Of a stretch of DNA of 64,000 nt, positions 2,759 to 10,508 are shown piece by piece. A program made the translations under genes and the position numbers. The DNA comes from Promineifilum sp. (GTDB taxonomy: Bacteria; Chloroflexota; Anaerolineae; Promineifilales; Promineifilaceae). Positions within the stretch are counted from its first letter, which is position 1; the number at the start of each line of letters is the position of its first letter. The stretch is from positions 1 to 64,000 of the forward strand of contig JAGOZU010000005.1 in NCBI GenBank assembly GCA_018058545.1, written 5' to 3'. The notes under the pieces were generated by a model, which saw only the letters and a list, made by a program, of their open reading frames with translations, did not search any database and was not told the origin of the DNA.

Positions 2759-5700
2759 TCAACTCTCCAGATGGACGTGGAGTTTGCTGATACTTTTGTT
2801 TTGAGCCACCCATTCCCCGACCAGACCGATGCGCAACTCATAGAGAGCCTTTCCCTCTTCCATGACTTCGCGCATGATATCGCGCTCGACCAGCGCGTTG
2901 AGGGCGTGTGTCACTTCGGTTGGGTCCAATTCGATGCTGTATGACTGGAGGTGCTCGGCGAAAACTTCCGGGTGCAGAGGTTCGTTACGATCCATCAGAT
3001 GAGCTGCGGCGGCCAGCACCGCCCTTTCGGCCAGGTTCGCCCGTTGCCAGATGTAGGCGAAATGCACCTCGCCCAGCCGCAGCATCTCATCCAGGGCTAC
3101 GTTCACGTCGGAGATGGTCACATAGCCTGTTTTCTGCTGATTAGCTCGCTTGACCAGCGTATAGCAGACGAGTTGGAGGAAGTAGGGATGGCCGGCTGTG
3201 ACGCGCAAAATTTTATCGATCGCCAGGTCATCATAGATGATGTTCGGAGCAACCGGATCGCAAATGAGACGCGATGCTGCCTCCTCGCTCAGGAAATCGA
3301 TCTTGCGATAGAGGGCTATATTGAACAGGACCGACCAGTAATCGGCGCTCATTTCCTCCAGACGGCGCGTTCCGACGAAGACGAACCCCAGCCCGGGGCT
3401 ATGCTGCATGAGGTGGCGCATGTAGGGGAAGAACGTGCGTGGCAGGATGCCGTCCGCGACCATGGACTCGAACGCCTCAAATTCATCGAAGACTAGTAAC
3501 AGGATCGTGTCTGCAGGCAGTGATTGACGCACGGCCGGCAGAAACTCGCGTTGGAACACACGCGCCGGATCCGCCTGCCACCCATCGTATTCGGGCACGT
3601 CGATATTGTTCCCTTTGCTGTTCAATGCGTCGGCTATATGCCAGGCAAACTCCTGCAATAGCGCCGGCATGCCGGGCGACACGCCGAGCGATTGGCAATC
3701 AATGTAAACCGGCAATAGTTGCGGCGGCAGATAATCCTCCAGCCGCAAGAGAAGTGATGTTTTTCCGGTGCGTCGCTGTCCCACCAGCATGAACACGTTT
3801 CGTTGACTCTGCATCCCGGCATGTTCAGCGATGAAGTCGAACAGCTCCTCGCGGCCGAAAAACAGCGAACTGTCCTTACGCAAGGGTGTCCCCGGAAGAT
3901 AGGGGTTGGCCGTCGGGGTAAACTCTCGGACAGGCGGCAATAAATAGACCATGTCGCCGAATGCCGCGGTCTTGCCGTGGAGATTACGGTCGTCATAGGT
4001 CAATGACATCGCCACCCGAAAACGTTCTTCCGCCTGTGGCTCGATGACGAACCGCACCTGCCGTGTCCGGCCGGACGGGAGAAACGGGATGATTTGCGGC
4101 TCCGAACGGATCAGATAGGCAGGATTCTCATCCAGTACGGCAATGATATTTTCGGCCGCCGCGCGCCCGGAGTTACGAATTTCCATTGCCACGTACGTGC
4201 TGCCGTTGGGCGCCAATCGTTTGGTCTTTAGTGTCACCTCCAGTTCGGCGCGGCCGCGCTGATCTTCGATCTCGGCCGTCAGCAATCCCGCCCATCGACG
4301 CGTGATAGCACGTACCAATGTTCGATCGATGCTGGAGGGGTATTTGTCCAGTTGCTCCTGCACCTGTCGCAGTCGGACGGCAGCCTGATTGAGATAGACC
4401 AGTCGATCATCGGCCGCATCGACGCGTTCGCTGTCGCGCATGTTCGTCAGCACCGGCAGGAGCGATTCCAGGATTGGTGACCACTCCTTACGCTCCGCGA
4501 GCGCGGTCAGGACGTGGGCAAATTGCGGTCGTAACAAGCTTAATTCGGTGATGGAAGGAGCTTCGAGTAAGGCCTGGCCGGTCTTTAATATGAGCCGCCG
4601 ATGATATAGCCCATCCCAATTCCTGTCAGAGTTAGCGGCGTCATCCAGAACACGGGTGATGATCGGTAGCCCCGCCTGAGGCCGGTTGCCCAGCAGGAAT
4701 AGTCCGTCGGCCAGGTTGGCAACGTTCTGATCTCCGGCTTGCCGGGCGCGATTAGCCAGCTGCAGCAGGAAGTCCGGCGATCCGCTTTCCAAAGCATATC
4801 TTTGTTCGAGCTTTGATAGGGTGTTTTCCGGCTCTTGGGCCAATTGCTTGTAAAACCGGGCGGCCTGAGCTGCCGGCGTTTGTTCCTGTCGCATGAACAG
4901 GACCAGACCGGCCAGCACCAGAAACCCGAGTGACGCACTGGCGACCAGCAAGGACTCGTTCGTCGATGCGCCGGCGACGACTTCCGGGCCAAGCGGCGGC
5001 GTGATATACCCGCGGTAGAATCCGTCGCTGAAACGAAAGCGATAATTGATCCGGCTAGTGCCTTCGAGAGGGATGACACCCGGCCAAAATAACTGTCCGT
5101 TTCCGGTGGGCAGTCGCTGTTCTGACTGAGGAACCCATGAATCGCTGGTTTCATCATGCAGTTCCAGTTGGACGGCAACCGCATCATTCTCCACGTCCTG
5201 GACTGAAACACCGATCGAGAACTGGCCTCGTTCCACTTCCACGGTCGGTTTTGTCAACAATGGAGGCCGGTTTTCCTCTTCCCGGAATAGGCGGACCAAG
5301 CCATTTTGGGTTACAGCCAGCAAATCAGGGGACTGTCGCGAGGTGCGCTTCAGCAGCGCTACATCGAATACGCTGCTGGTTAGCGATAGTTCAAGGATGC
5401 GGCGCGGGCTTCGCGTTTGCAGTTGCTCATAGAGGCGGATGTTGCCGTCACGCGAACCGACCAGGCCGGTATCCGGTCGCCCGTCCTGATTTAGATCAGC
5501 CCAGCCCAGAGCCTGGATATTGCCCAGTTCGCCGATCGACCAGGTTATGGTCGGCCGGTTATCAACCAGGTTCAATTGTTCCAGCGCTCCGTCTTCAGTT
5601 GCTATCATGAATGAGGCGATATTTTCCTGAAATGCTTCCGCCGCCCCTGCACTGGTGAGTCTGACAATATTCGGAGGTGTGAATAATGACACGGGCCAAT

Positions 5701-7777
5701 CCCATTGACTCATTTCAAGCCCTTGATAGTTGAGGCCGTGTACGCGGCCATCTGCAGTGAAGGCGACTACCCTGACAGCCATTTCCGGCCCACCCGGCAG
5801 GCTGATATGGTAAAGCGCCTTGATGTCGCTATCCAGGGTGGCGAATGGCGATGAGGAGACGCCGTCGTTAGATAGATCCAGTTGGATGAGTTCACGATCT
5901 CCTGCGGCGATAAGTGAGTTTAACCCCGCAGGGCCATTATCCAACAAGGCTATATGCCGGACTCCACCGGCCAGATCGGTCGCGGGGAATTCCCATCGCC
6001 TGTTTCCGTCAAGATCGTAGGCGATAATCTGGCCGTCCAGTGTGCCGATCAGGATAGTGGACATCGCTGACCCAAGACGATCATCAACCGCTAATGACGT
6101 CACTTGCCCGGGGATGATAGTCTCCCATATGCGTTCGCCGGTGGTCTCGCGAAGCTCCAGTCGGCTATTGGTTCTCGTCGTCTCACTGGAAGGATCCGCC
6201 GCTGTCCGTTCACGCCTGACGACGACGATTTGGGGTGGGGCAGTCAGGGAATGACGGATCGTATGAAGATAGGCAATCTCTTTTCCAGGCGCATTGAGCC
6301 AGAGGATCGTGCTGTCCAGACCCAGGCCGTGTAGCCGGCCGTCGCGCGTGCCAACGACTATCTCCTCTTCGCCATCTTCGTCCAAATCAGCGACCAGCAA
6401 GGCGGTCGGCGCGGCATTGAGCGTGTACTCCCACTCCTTGATATATTCGCTGTCTCCCACACCCAGACCGAATAGTTGCAAGGTCGCAAAGCGCGGCAGC
6501 AATAACTCGTAATGCCCGTCGTGGTTCACGTCTGTCAGTTGGGTGAGATCGGGCAAATCAGTGTCATTTATCTTGGCTAATGTCTGACCGTTATTTCCCA
6601 GAAGATAGATGTCGGCTAACTGGGTCGAATTGGGTAGAGGCTCCAGTATCACGCCCAGTGGAGCTCGCCCTTCCATCGCTCCACCATTGGCTGGCATCAG
6701 TGCCAGAATCGCGCGATTGCCGTCCTTGGCCATTTGATTAGTCCACAGACGACGACCTTCGCGGGAATAGGCGATGACGCTGCCGGCAGCCGTGCCGACG
6801 ACGAGAGCGGGTCCATTGGGCAATTCGACAAATGTGGTGCTGACGATAGGTCGGTTGACCGTCCGGAACCAGGTTGATACACCGTCGGGCGAATAGAGCT
6901 CCAACTGGCCGAAATTGGTGCCGACGGCGATATAACTGGTCTTGGCGTCGAATGGCGCTTCAGTCAGCGTCGTGACGCGCCGTGAGATGGGTTGGCGCCA
7001 GGCGATGGTGTAATTATCCAGATAGATGATTTCACTGAAGCGTCGGGGGGTAAAAAGCCCCATGACGATTTCATCTGTGCCGTCACCGTCGAAGTCGGCG
7101 ACGATTATCTGGGGGTTCACATTGATATTGGGGTTTTCCTGGCCCGCAAATTGCCAGATATTTTCCCCAGCGGCGTTATAAGCCAGCAATTGGCCGGATG
7201 CCAGAAGCACCAGCAGATCGCCGTTCCCATCGGACTGGAAATCCAGGGCCTCGATGGCCACGGGACTGGTGTTGTCCGGGAGAGAGATTCGCCAGACCGG
7301 ATCGCCGGCCGAATCCAGAACCATCAGGTAACCCGTGCCTGCCACGGCGATCTCCTTTTCGGGCGATTGGTTGTCGAGGATGTCGACAACCCCGATAGCG
7401 GCTACCGGATCGGAGTTGAAATGCGTCCACACCTGACTGCCGTCGGCGAGCAAAAGCGTGAGTTGTCCGTTTTCATCGAGGACGAGAAACTCATCGACTC
7501 CATCGCCGGTGACATCGGCGGTCACGATTGTGTCCAGTCGTCCAGACGCCGCGTATTGCCAAAAGCTTTGCAGGCGGCTCCGATCCTGGGCGGCCACGTC
7601 GGTGGTGGCCGGCAGGGATAGTGACAGGTATAGAAGAAATAAAGCGGGCCACAGGCGCAACAGGAAACGACGATTGCTGGAGGGCGTCGCATGAACGTGG
7701 AGAGCACCCTGGACGGGCACCAGGGTAGTGGGAGGCACCGGCTTGATCCGGTTATTCTTCCGGCGCGCGGAGGGCAT
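2759..7777 (-). CDS. Membrane STAND-type ATPase with extracytoplasmic FG-GAP/beta-propeller sensor region
   Basis: This is a 1672-residue membrane protein of unrecognised specific function. Residues about 38-56 form a signal anchor. From about 65 to 850 there are many repeats of the type D-x-D-x-D-G-x-D/E (for example VTGDGVDEFLVLDENG, DLDEDGEEEIVVGT), typical of FG-GAP/PQQ propeller blades, followed by an Ig-like segment. A transmembrane helix lies near 935-957. The inside part has a helical TPR-like region, a beta-sandwich (about 1185-1285) and a STAND/AAA_16-type ATPase starting NPYLPGTPL...FFGREEL, with Walker A GQRRTGKT near 1332 and Walker B LLLVFDEFE. I chose ATG 7777 because GAGGAG precedes it; a longer frame starts at 7813. 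It overlaps the upstream ATPase gene by 26 nt, which suggests translational coupling and joint function. Confidence 0.8.
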   Translation of the reverse strand: MPSARRKNNRIKPVPPTTLVPVQGALHVHATPSSNRRFLLRLWPALFLLYLSLSLPATTDVAAQDRSRLQSFWQYAASGRLDTIVTADVTGDGVDEFLVLDENGQLTLLLADGSQVWTHFNSDPVAAIGVVDILDNQSPEKEIAVAGTGYLMVLDSAGDPVWRISLPDNTSPVAIEALDFQSDGNGDLLVLLASGQLLAYNAAGENIWQFAGQENPNINVNPQIIVADFDGDGTDEIVMGLFTPRRFSEIIYLDNYTIAWRQPISRRVTTLTEAPFDAKTSYIAVGTNFGQLELYSPDGVSTWFRTVNRPIVSTTFVELPNGPALVVGTAAGSVIAYSREGRRLWTNQMAKDGNRAILALMPANGGAMEGRAPLGVILEPLPNSTQLADIYLLGNNGQTLAKINDTDLPDLTQLTDVNHDGHYELLLPRFATLQLFGLGVGDSEYIKEWEYTLNAAPTALLVADLDEDGEEEIVVGTRDGRLHGLGLDSTILWLNAPGKEIAYLHTIRHSLTAPPQIVVVRRERTAADPSSETTRTNSRLELRETTGERIWETIIPGQVTSLAVDDRLGSAMSTILIGTLDGQIIAYDLDGNRRWEFPATDLAGGVRHIALLDNGPAGLNSLIAAGDRELIQLDLSNDGVSSSPFATLDSDIKALYHISLPGGPEMAVRVVAFTADGRVHGLNYQGLEMSQWDWPVSLFTPPNIVRLTSAGAAEAFQENIASFMIATEDGALEQLNLVDNRPTITWSIGELGNIQALGWADLNQDGRPDTGLVGSRDGNIRLYEQLQTRSPRRILELSLTSSVFDVALLKRTSRQSPDLLAVTQNGLVRLFREEENRPPLLTKPTVEVERGQFSIGVSVQDVENDAVAVQLELHDETSDSWVPQSEQRLPTGNGQLFWPGVIPLEGTSRINYRFRFSDGFYRGYITPPLGPEVVAGASTNESLLVASASLGFLVLAGLVLFMRQEQTPAAQAARFYKQLAQEPENTLSKLEQRYALESGSPDFLLQLANRARQAGDQNVANLADGLFLLGNRPQAGLPIITRVLDDAANSDRNWDGLYHRRLILKTGQALLEAPSITELSLLRPQFAHVLTALAERKEWSPILESLLPVLTNMRDSERVDAADDRLVYLNQAAVRLRQVQEQLDKYPSSIDRTLVRAITRRWAGLLTAEIEDQRGRAELEVTLKTKRLAPNGSTYVAMEIRNSGRAAAENIIAVLDENPAYLIRSEPQIIPFLPSGRTRQVRFVIEPQAEERFRVAMSLTYDDRNLHGKTAAFGDMVYLLPPVREFTPTANPYLPGTPLRKDSSLFFGREELFDFIAEHAGMQSQRNVFMLVGQRRTGKTSLLLRLEDYLPPQLLPVYIDCQSLGVSPGMPALLQEFAWHIADALNSKGNNIDVPEYDGWQADPARVFQREFLPAVRQSLPADTILLLVFDEFEAFESMVADGILPRTFFPYMRHLMQHSPGLGFVFVGTRRLEEMSADYWSVLFNIALYRKIDFLSEEAASRLICDPVAPNIIYDDLAIDKILRVTAGHPYFLQLVCYTLVKRANQQKTGYVTISDVNVALDEMLRLGEVHFAYIWQRANLAERAVLAAAAHLMDRNEPLHPEVFAEHLQSYSIELDPTEVTHALNALVERDIMREVMEEGKALYELRIGLVGEWVAQNKSISKLHVHLES

Positions 7778-9152
7778 AACCCACTCCTCGTTCGCTGACG
7801 ATCCAGTTTCCATATGGATCGATGGCTCTGCGCAAGCGTTTGATCAGAGTTTTTAGGCGGTCAGGGTCGTCGACCAAAACGTCGCCCCAAACGGTCAGCT
7901 CCAGATCCTCGCCACGGACAACCTGGCCGGCGTGGAGACACATTCGCACCAGGATGCTGAACTGCGATGTCGTCAGGCTTAGCTCGCGGCCGTTGCCCCA
8001 AACCTGATGACGCTGTTCGTCGATGACGAAAGGCCCGGCCTGCACCAGTCCTGGCACATCCTGCCGCCGCACGAAGCGACGCAAGATCTCGCTACTATAA
8101 TAATACTTCTCATCGACCCGTTGCAGCAGACATTGTTGCTCCAGCTGCCTCAGGCTTTCGATGGGGCCGTCGGCAATAGCCAGCACATGCTGTTCTTCGG
8201 GTGTTAAATTCTGCCATAAATAGCTGAGATGTGATTCCGCCTCTATTTCCACAGGATGGTCAAGAAGGGAGAAGTCTCGCTCGGCGATGTTCAGGCTGTC
8301 GTCTGCCTTAATGTCCTCGTTGATAACAGCCTGAATGGCATGATAGCCGGCGATATGCAGGAAGAACGGATGCAAACCCGCCAATTCGATCAGGTAATTC
8401 ACCATTTTCGGTGAAAGCTTGACCGAGGTTTGTGTTAGCCGTTGGCGAAATAGCTCGCGCGCCTCAACCTCGCTGAACAGTCCGAGCGGCAGCGTGACGA
8501 AGATATTGAAGAAAGGCGAACTGAGGACGGCTTCCTCAGCCGTGATGGCGAACAATGGCCGCTGGCTTGCCGTCAAAAAGGCCAAGCCATATTTGGTAGT
8601 CAACCCGCGCAAACGAGCAAAGAAATAGGGCGACAGGTGTCGATTGGCAGCCAGTAGTTCGAATTCATCCAGCAGTACTACGACGGCCGTCCCTCGTTGA
8701 TGTACTTTTTGCAGGGCGCGGTCCAGCGCACGATAAGTGCCTGGCTCAGTTGTCATTTCGAGACCCAGGCCGGCATGTTCGGCCGCCTCCAGGAGCCCGC
8801 TGAGCAACAACTCGTAGACCTCTTCGGGTGGCGAACCGGCCAATTCCTGGCAGTCGAGCATTATGAATAGATAGTCCGATTCATTGAGCCGGAATGAGGA
8901 ACGCACTGTAAGCTGGCACAGGTGCAGGAGAAGAGAACTCTTGCCGATTCGGCGCGGGCCGATGAGCGATACGCTTTGACCATTCCGCAAGAGGCCCAAA
9001 ATCTGGTTGATTTCAGCCTCTCGGCCGACGAAATCCTCGATGTGCCGGATGGCTCCACGATGGAAAAACGGATTATCTGCACCCATGACAAACCTATTGT
9101 AATGCCGAACGATGTGAAAGGGTAGCTGAGATATGTCCCATTCCACGTTCAC
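7752..9152 (-). CDS. STAND-type ATPase fused to OmpR/PhoB-type winged-helix DNA-binding domain
   Basis: This is a 466-residue cytosolic protein. A FVGREAEI motif opens a STAND-type NTPase with Walker A GPRRIGKS at 65-72 and Walker B VVVLLDEFE at 157-165; a helical arm follows. The C-terminal 100 residues form an OmpR/PhoB-like winged helix (LSLTTSQFSILVRMCLHAGQ, then ELTVWGD and LIKRLRRAIDP, ending in the VSERGVGYAL wing). It therefore looks like an ATP-switched transcription factor. The start used here is GTG 9152; ATG 9086 is an alternative without a good ribosome-binding site. Its 3' end overlaps the membrane STAND ATPase, whose ATPase part has the same order of motifs, so the two may oligomerise or signal to each other. 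The ligand and target promoters are unknown. Confidence 0.82.
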   Translation of the reverse strand: MNVEWDISQLPFHIVRHYNRFVMGADNPFFHRGAIRHIEDFVGREAEINQILGLLRNGQSVSLIGPRRIGKSSLLLHLCQLTVRSSFRLNESDYLFIMLDCQELAGSPPEEVYELLLSGLLEAAEHAGLGLEMTTEPGTYRALDRALQKVHQRGTAVVVLLDEFELLAANRHLSPYFFARLRGLTTKYGLAFLTASQRPLFAITAEEAVLSSPFFNIFVTLPLGLFSEVEARELFRQRLTQTSVKLSPKMVNYLIELAGLHPFFLHIAGYHAIQAVINEDIKADDSLNIAERDFSLLDHPVEIEAESHLSYLWQNLTPEEQHVLAIADGPIESLRQLEQQCLLQRVDEKYYYSSEILRRFVRRQDVPGLVQAGPFVIDEQRHQVWGNGRELSLTTSQFSILVRMCLHAGQVVRGEDLELTVWGDVLVDDPDRLKTLIKRLRRAIDPYGNWIVSERGVGYALRAPEE

Positions 9153-9209
9153 TATAATAGATCGCTAACATCCTTGTCTCAGACCGCCTGCGCACGTACA
9201 ATCGAACAA

Positions 9210-10508
9210 ATGACCGATGAATTGGGCAGCCTCCTTCGCCGTCTGGGTGTTACCAAAGGGGCACGACATATCCGGCCGGCCTCTGTTCCCATAACCGGAG
9301 GTCGATTTACACTCAATGAGGCACCTGATTCGCCACCCCCGCTTGAACAACTCCTGCCGGGTGGCCGGCTGATGGGATCGGATGAGGGCGCCTGTTTCGT
9401 CGTCGATCATGTTTATCCGCTACATTATCGTCACGGAGATGATACCTTGGCCGATCTGCTGGTGGTCGGCCCGGCCGCAGCCGAACCATATCGGCTTGAA
9501 GACCGGCTCGTGGGAGATGATTTCCGTAATTTCCTATTTCTGGACACTGAGACGACAGGCCTGGCCGGCGCCGGCACCCTGGCCTTCATGGTTGGCGTGG
9601 CCTACTTTGAGCCGCACACCACGATAATCGATGGTCGGACGGAAGAGGGGGATGTGCTGGTCGTCCGGCAATATTTCCTGCGTGACCAGGATGACGAGCC
9701 GGAGATGCTCCGTCAACTGGATGATATCCTGGCGGATAAAGTGGGCCTAATCACTTTTAACGGCAAGTCCTTTGATGTACCGCTGCTGGGCAACCGTTAT
9801 CTGATGAATCGCCGGCGCGGCCGCTTGCCGGAAATGCCCCATATCGATCTGTTGGCTCCGTCGCGCCGCCTTTACCGGGCACGTCTTGGTTCCTGTGCCC
9901 TGGGTTCACTGGAACAGAGCTTGCTTGGCTTGCATCGGACGCAGGACGACGTGCCGGGATGGTTAATTCCCTCGCTTTACTTCGATTACCTGCGCTCGGG
10001 CGATGCGCGGCGATTGACTGGGGTCTTTTATCATAACGAAATGGATATGTTATCGATGGTCACCCTGGCCTCGCGTATCTTTCGCCAACTGGCGGCTTCC
10101 CGCTGTGATGACCCGCTCGACCAATTGAGCCTCGGCCGCTGGCAGGTCGGCCTGGGACTGCACGATCTGGCCGAGGATACACTACGGTCGTCGCTGGATG
10201 GCGATCTCCCACTTGAAGCCTATCACCAGGCGCTCCATGAGTTGGGGAAGCTTTACAAGCAGCGGGATCGCCGTGAGGATGCCGTCGTTGCCTGGCAGCA
10301 AATTGCTTCGACCAGCACCGATGATGTGGCTGCCCATCTTGAATTGGCCAAGTATTATGAATGGCGCGAAGTCGATGTGGCCGCCGCCATACAGTGGACG
10401 CGTCGGGCGATGGCTCTCGTCGAGCGATGGCCGTTGACGCCTCGCTCCCGCCTCGCACATGCCGAATTACGCCATCGCCTGGAGCGTTTGGAGAAGAAGG
10501 CGGCCTGA
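9210..10508 (+). CDS. YprB-like RNase H-fold (DEDD) exonuclease with TPR-like tail
   Basis: This protein resembles Bacillus YprB and other RNase_H_2 proteins. FLFLDTETTGLAG carries the DxE exonuclease motif, LITFNGKSFDVPLL holds the next conserved Asp, MPHIDLLAPSRR and the later HNEMDMLSM segment complete the DEDD set. The last 120 residues are helical and TPR-like (LHELGKLYKQRDRREDAVVAWQQIA). The substrate is unknown; a nucleic-acid exonuclease role is inferred from the fold. I report ATG 9210; TTG 9174 in the same frame is a possible earlier start. A TATAAT at 9153-9158 on this strand probably belongs to its promoter. It is transcribed divergently from the STAND-winged-helix gene. Confidence 0.78.
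   Translation: MTDELGSLLRRLGVTKGARHIRPASVPITGGRFTLNEAPDSPPPLEQLLPGGRLMGSDEGACFVVDHVYPLHYRHGDDTLADLLVVGPAAAEPYRLEDRLVGDDFRNFLFLDTETTGLAGAGTLAFMVGVAYFEPHTTIIDGRTEEGDVLVVRQYFLRDQDDEPEMLRQLDDILADKVGLITFNGKSFDVPLLGNRYLMNRRRGRLPEMPHIDLLAPSRRLYRARLGSCALGSLEQSLLGLHRTQDDVPGWLIPSLYFDYLRSGDARRLTGVFYHNEMDMLSMVTLASRIFRQLAASRCDDPLDQLSLGRWQVGLGLHDLAEDTLRSSLDGDLPLEAYHQALHELGKLYKQRDRREDAVVAWQQIASTSTDDVAAHLELAKYYEWREVDVAAAIQWTRRAMALVERWPLTPRSRLAHAELRHRLERLEKKAA

Follow-up and report, generated by a model that had tools for sequence, protein, structure and literature searches.

Results

Two overlapping genes for STAND ATPases

The window analysed here is the whole stretch of 64,000 nucleotides from Promineifilum sp. 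(contig JAGOZU010000005.1), a filamentous environmental bacterium of the Anaerolineae (Chloroflexota). Two open reading frames on its minus strand, here called A and B, overlap in such a way that the ATG of B (7777) lies 26 nt inside A. The following features were assigned:

7752-9086, minus: gene A, 444 aa, cytosolic ATPase of nSTAND2 type, with a PhoB/OmpR-type winged helix at the C-terminus
9096-9101, minus: -10-like hexamer of A, TACAAT, 9 nt ahead of ATG 9086; probable leaderless start
8187-9044, minus: STAND NTPase domain of A (motifs and fold match)
8934-8960, minus: Walker A of A, GPRRIGKSS
7761-8054, minus: winged-helix DNA-binding domain of A
2759-7777, minus: gene B, 1672 aa, predicted membrane-anchored sensor STAND ATPase
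7784-7789, minus: Shine-Dalgarno-like GAGGAG of B, 6 nt ahead of ATG 7777, within the end of A
7610-7666, minus: predicted N-terminal hydrophobic export segment of B (hydropathy and positive-inside charges)
4958-7582, minus: predicted extracytoplasmic domain of B, two tandem beta-propellers, then an Ig-like domain
about 5003-5260, minus: putative Ig-like domain of B, from the ectodomain model
4895-4951, minus: predicted transmembrane helix of B, residues 943-961
4016-4840, minus: cytosolic linker of B, then a possible CARDB/Ig-like stretch (alignment)
2798-3910, minus: STAND NTPase domain of B (AAA_22; motifs DEFE and GHPYF)
3755-3781, minus: Walker A of B, GQRRTGKTS

The overlap is credible in the window because GAGGAG precedes the ATG of B. 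Among 38 orthologous pairs, called gaps between A and B range from -166 to +170 nt; the 26-nt overlap, which an earlier sequence-only reading had emphasized, is thus present in the window and not conserved, and it is the tight linkage of the two genes that is conserved.

The same reading had let A begin at GTG 9152. This start was rejected, as homologues align only from residue 22-23 of the protein so read; this alignment, together with the position of the -10 hexamer, places the start at ATG 9086. A -10-like hexamer stands 6-13 nt upstream of the ATG of A in most orthologues, and the motif TA[CAT]AAT occurs within 22 nt of it in 33 of 44, compared with 8 occurrences in all 178-nt stretches farther upstream. 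Position and conservation of the hexamer therefore point to a leaderless start of A, between 9152 and 9086. The stretch 9087-9215 holds the divergent promoters of A and of a YprB-like gene (probable ATG 9210); in both, a -10 hexamer seems to precede the ATG by a few bases, which would give leaderless transcripts. A palindrome, proposed as a check for 9153-9209, was not found, and there is no inverted or direct repeat within 9080-9230. Searches for repeats and promoter motifs identified no operator for A, and a regulon search found the conserved A promoter motif a single time in the genome, at A itself.

Protein A: a STAND ATPase with a winged helix

The assignment of A to STAND-type ATPases with an OmpR-type winged helix is confirmed by Pfam, with matches to nSTAND2 (PF20702; E 4e-16, 59.5 bits at a curated cut-off of 24) and to Trans_reg_C (1.6e-13). 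Besides Walker A, the protein displays a Walker B (LLDEFE), an invariant F-x-x-L-R as candidate arginine finger, the signature SPFFNIF, and GxHP. The AF2 model (pLDDT 90.7) places the ATPase close to archaeal STAND ATPases and to NLRs (2qen, Z 21.9; RPP1, Z 17.6; CED-4, Z 15.9), with NRC4 also among the matches, and the tail close to PhoP/PhoB DNA-binding domains (Z 15-16, rmsd 1.6-2.5; 2d1v, TMt 0.82). Pfam finds no Response_reg receiver domain in A, the STAND ATPase occupying its place, and A has no membrane segment.

Protein B: a predicted receptor with a second STAND ATPase

Topology of B was derived by hydropathy. The export segment and the membrane helix proposed earlier were both recovered, the latter (residues 943-961) being conserved among orthologues. 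Judged by the charges around this second helix, the positive-inside rule assigns the propeller to the outer face in 36 of 36 sequences, and judged by those around the first, in 31 of 36; a cytosolic propeller, which would have spoken against a sensor, is thus not what is predicted, and the FG-GAP/PQQ-like repeats (Pfam FG-GAP_3, 3e-18; PQQ_2, 6e-15) lie on the outer side, as had been proposed. The AF2 model of the ectodomain is all beta (pLDDT 86.9, pTM 0.64). Its second propeller (model residues 376-769) matches the 8-bladed propellers Rsa4, Ika8 and BamB with Z 28-33, and repeats and strand pattern suggest a first propeller. The ectodomain contains five calcium-type D-x-x-x-DG motifs.

On the cytosolic side, the linker is probably helical, judging by its sequence. 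The TPR-like part ascribed to B earlier finds no support, as Pfam returns no TPR family in the linker; a weak CARDB/Ig-like match follows (E 0.11). A second ATPase with the same order of motifs as in A (FGRE, Walker A, Walker B) is indeed present: all three motifs were found, Walker B reading FDEFE, and Pfam matches AAA_22 (1.5e-8). Neither nSTAND2 nor HisKA or HATPase is matched by Pfam in B. Mean column identity is 35% in the ectodomain and 63% in the cytosolic part, and this faster divergence of the ectodomain fits the expectation for the ligand-facing part of a sensor.

Both A and B belong to the clade of STAND NTPases, which is defined by the two Walker motifs, a conserved arginine, a GxP motif, and a winged-helix tail; the motifs were checked across 80 A/B pairs, with fold evidence for A and sequence alone for B.

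Conservation within the family Promineifilaceae

In 52 genomes of the family A and B were searched for, 46 being assessable for linkage and 6 being non-assessable for contig ends or incompleteness. The genes are adjacent in 40 of the 46 (G000-G002, G004-G006, G008, G010-G016, G018-G027, G029, G030, G032-G034, G036, G038, G039, G041-G047, G049). They are unlinked in six (G031, G037, G040, G048, G050, G051), each of which keeps both genes; these fall in three lineages, namely G031, G037 and genus g22. Within g22, A and B stand apart in G040, G048, G050 (63 kb apart on one contig) and G051, and are still linked in G045. No family genome above 90% completeness has one gene alone, single-gene cases occurring only below 90%. 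Outside the family, an orthologous A/B pair is found in one genome (G107), and a related propeller/winged-helix pair at locus L184.

No constant target gene was found beside the pair, the flanks of which vary from genome to genome in the family. Most often, at 22 of 38 orthologous loci, the neighbour is a gene for a SixA-like phosphatase in convergent orientation, which may be plain synteny; in the window this SixA-like phosphohistidine phosphatase gene lies at 2209-2697, convergent with B.

A wider class of paired STAND ATPases

When 84,980 genomes were scanned with an alignment of A-type proteins only, regardless of B, 79 loci were kept. At 27 of 29 assessable loci in the family and at 35 of 39 outside, i.e. 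at 62 of 68 assessable loci, a B-type STAND is encoded on the same strand no more than 3 kb away. The side-by-side conservation on which the idea of a sensor and its partner depended is thereby borne out, these A-only figures being the unbiased measure of linkage, since loci fetched by hand were partly picked for having both genes. Over all distinct loci there are 109 linked pairs, nearly all sequences being metagenome-assembled genomes (MAGs). Linked pairs were also seen in MAGs classified as Gemmatimonadetes (L208), Poribacteria (L212), Acidobacteria (L215, the version of B with a periplasmic-binding ectodomain), Spirochaetales (L219) and Krumholzibacteriota (L223).

Walker A and D[ED] are present in all 109 linked B proteins and in nearly all A, and 99% of the A proteins and 86% of the B proteins keep a conserved arginine downstream of Walker B. 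SPFFNIF occurs in A and is absent from B, and nearly all B carry a membrane segment. In one tree, A-type and B-type STANDs split almost cleanly (2 changes, the least possible being 1). Distance matrices of A and B correlate with r 0.86 over 68 non-orthologous pairs, a value that includes shared species history; the best of 2000 permutations reached 0.17.

Outputs and sensors vary. Outside the family (n = 64 proteins), A carries a Ser/Thr kinase in 29, Trans_reg_C in 11, a LuxR HTH in 2, EAD7 in 2, and a sigma-54 activator, CHAT, or a cyclase in 1 each; the output switches at least nine times along the A tree. The sensors of B comprise propellers of the FG-GAP, PD40, Reg_prop and Sortilin/BNR kinds, and also Peripla_BP_6, PEGA, CarboxypepD_reg, GAF with multiple membrane segments, TPR, and HEAT, arranged as sensor-TM-STAND or STAND-TM-sensor. 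The pairing recurs in either gene order, and no A-B fusion protein was found among the fetched loci.

At two loci a single B gene has a winged-helix A on one side and a Ser/Thr-kinase A on the other, all on one strand: L184 (4825-13579), where B has a propeller, and L181 (9998-18873), where it has multiple membrane segments. This suggests one receptor with two outputs. Clusters of several A-type and B-type genes side by side occur at L097 (3112-18677) and L103 (4652-13079), with TPR and Sortilin/BNR parts in B, and A with a kinase or without a recognised output. The genome of the window itself (G000) holds a second, much diverged A/B pair (contig C87, L086 5916-8518), one member being an nSTAND2 protein of 546 aa, the other a STAND of 321 aa that lacks a recognised sensor. 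On contig C177 of the same genome (L087 6597-8033), EAD7 is fused to an nSTAND1 ATPase that has no adjoining B-type partner and is likely a conflict-system protein.

Of 121 evenly drawn Chloroflexota genomes, 4 contain nSTAND2, and of 14 well-known control genomes none does; such pairs may perhaps have been overlooked for that reason.

Discussion

Based on this dataset, we hypothesize that A and B together make up one signalling switch, to which each contributes one STAND ATPase. B would be the receptor, the double propeller of which senses something outside the membrane; the signal would pass through the single membrane helix and the linker to the cytosolic STAND ATPase of B. This ATPase would engage that of A, each probably completing the nucleotide site of the other via the conserved arginines, and ATP-dependent assembly of A with B would allow the PhoB-like winged helix of A to attach to DNA and alter transcription. 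The simplest reading would be that B signals to A by a hetero-assembly that depends on ATP.

A sensor-to-DNA switch of paired STAND ATPases, with B as receptor and A as regulator, is the best explanation in our view, with a probability of about two in three. Conserved pairing, matched evolution of the ATPases, intact motifs in both proteins, the topology of B, and swaps of sensors and outputs were all observed here. The earlier idea that an outside sensor signals to DNA through an ATPase pair gains from swaps, linkage and topology, and in the part that concerns contact between A and B, direction of signalling, ATP-driven assembly, ligand, and DNA target it is what we infer. The exchange of sensors and outputs while the A and B STAND cores stay the same lends strong comparative support to the idea of a route from sensor to output, and likewise, at the level of sequence comparison, to what would be a modular system built on STAND ATPase pairs, by analogy with two-component signalling.

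Two-component systems likewise join a membrane sensor to a cytosolic output partner, and they share PhoB winged-helix, LuxR HTH and sigma-54 outputs with the present class; however, Pfam finds no histidine kinase, HATPase or receiver in A and B, which carry STAND ATPases instead. A shares the C-terminal Trans_reg_C with OmpR/PhoB response regulators, while the receiver with its phospho-aspartate is missing. In HTCS hybrid sensors the outer part holds two propellers together with a Y_Y_Y domain, and the ectodomain of Promineifilaceae B resembles it with its tandem propeller and Ig-like domain; HTCS sensors are absent among the fold matches listed for this ectodomain, a listing that proves neither presence nor absence. 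Whether the pairs amount to a general class of bacterial transmembrane signalling alongside two-component systems, in which B as membrane receptor and A as output protein, with sensors and outputs interchangeable, would act by ATP-dependent hetero-assembly and not by phosphotransfer, appears to us an evenly balanced question; the window would then hold the propeller/winged-helix version, and some loci would have two outputs (winged helix and Ser/Thr kinase) per receptor.

Plant sensor/helper NLR pairs also consist of two STAND ATPases, one of which senses and one of which executes, and A matches RPP1 and NRC4 in fold. This is an analogy only, as those pairs are cytosolic immune proteins without membrane receptor or such a transcription output.

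The search of NCBIfam gave no family above cut-off, and the literature search found nothing on point for paired STAND signalling and a single relevant paper on nSTAND2 (Kaur et al., 2021). The statement of the sequence-only reading that no named system has this layout holds for the exact layout; a two-gene nSTAND2 operon of unlike content, however, has been described (Kaur, Iyer, Burroughs, Aravind, 2021, eLife, PMC8195603). In that operon, which is mobile and was read as counter-invader, one of two adjacent STANDs is inactive (eroded) and fused to GT4 or HEPN effectors, and conserved arginines suggest hetero-multimers (PMC8195603). Two adjacent STAND genes, one nSTAND2 match, and conserved arginines are common to both systems. 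A defence function, in which the paired ATPases would detect an invader and trigger an effector, could thus be argued from the nSTAND2 match of A, from the prediction made for the operon with its arginine fingers (PMC8195603), and from EAD7 or CHAT on some distant relatives of A. However, Walker A and B are intact in both proteins here; nuclease, GT4 and HEPN domains are absent from A and B by Pfam, GT4 and HEPN also among the families listed for A and B of the wider class; and an extracytoplasmic sensor on one partner goes with a DNA-binding or kinase output on the other, winged-helix, LuxR and sigma-54 outputs being regulatory. Moreover, the pair is inherited vertically across the family, and plasmid and phage collections returned no STAND match, only the winged helix, so that it does not qualify as mobile; PADLOC matches are weak (best E 0.002) and give no clear assignment. 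We consider a defence system improbable.

MalT, AfsR/SARP and GutR are single-protein STAND regulators, each of which includes its sensor part in its own chain. They resemble A in that a STAND ATPase is joined to an HTH domain; on the other hand, sensor and DNA-binder are two proteins here, each with its own STAND ATPase. That regulators like MalT act as a single protein, and that the pair is unlinked in three lineages, would agree with A being a stand-alone regulator responding to a cytosolic signal, with B as a co-transcribed envelope protein for adhesion or polymer binding and adjacency reflecting shared regulation only. This appears just as improbable as defence, because the same two STAND subfamilies are repeatedly paired with unlike appendages and in either gene order, because A and B diverge in a correlated way, and because adhesion alone would give no reason to conserve an intact ATPase. 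Slightly less probable still is membrane tethering, by which B would sequester A through STAND-STAND contact and then release it, with ATP hydrolysis serving for timing only: intact, paired STANDs and a membrane segment in nearly all B and not in A are in line with it, but kinase and cyclase outputs would not need release, and the present data do not separate release from co-assembly.

To our knowledge, few routes are known that carry a signal across the bacterial membrane to DNA, namely phosphotransfer, membrane-tethered regulators, and release of anti-sigma factors. The A/B pair looks like a little-known modular route for outside signals into the cell, and if the proposed switch holds true, recurring STAND ATPase pairs, among which receptors and outputs are exchanged, would add another route from membrane to DNA. 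Receptors of ligand type, such as the periplasmic-binding-protein version, open the class to direct tests. NLR-like switches are known chiefly from immunity; the pair described here would tie them to everyday signalling.
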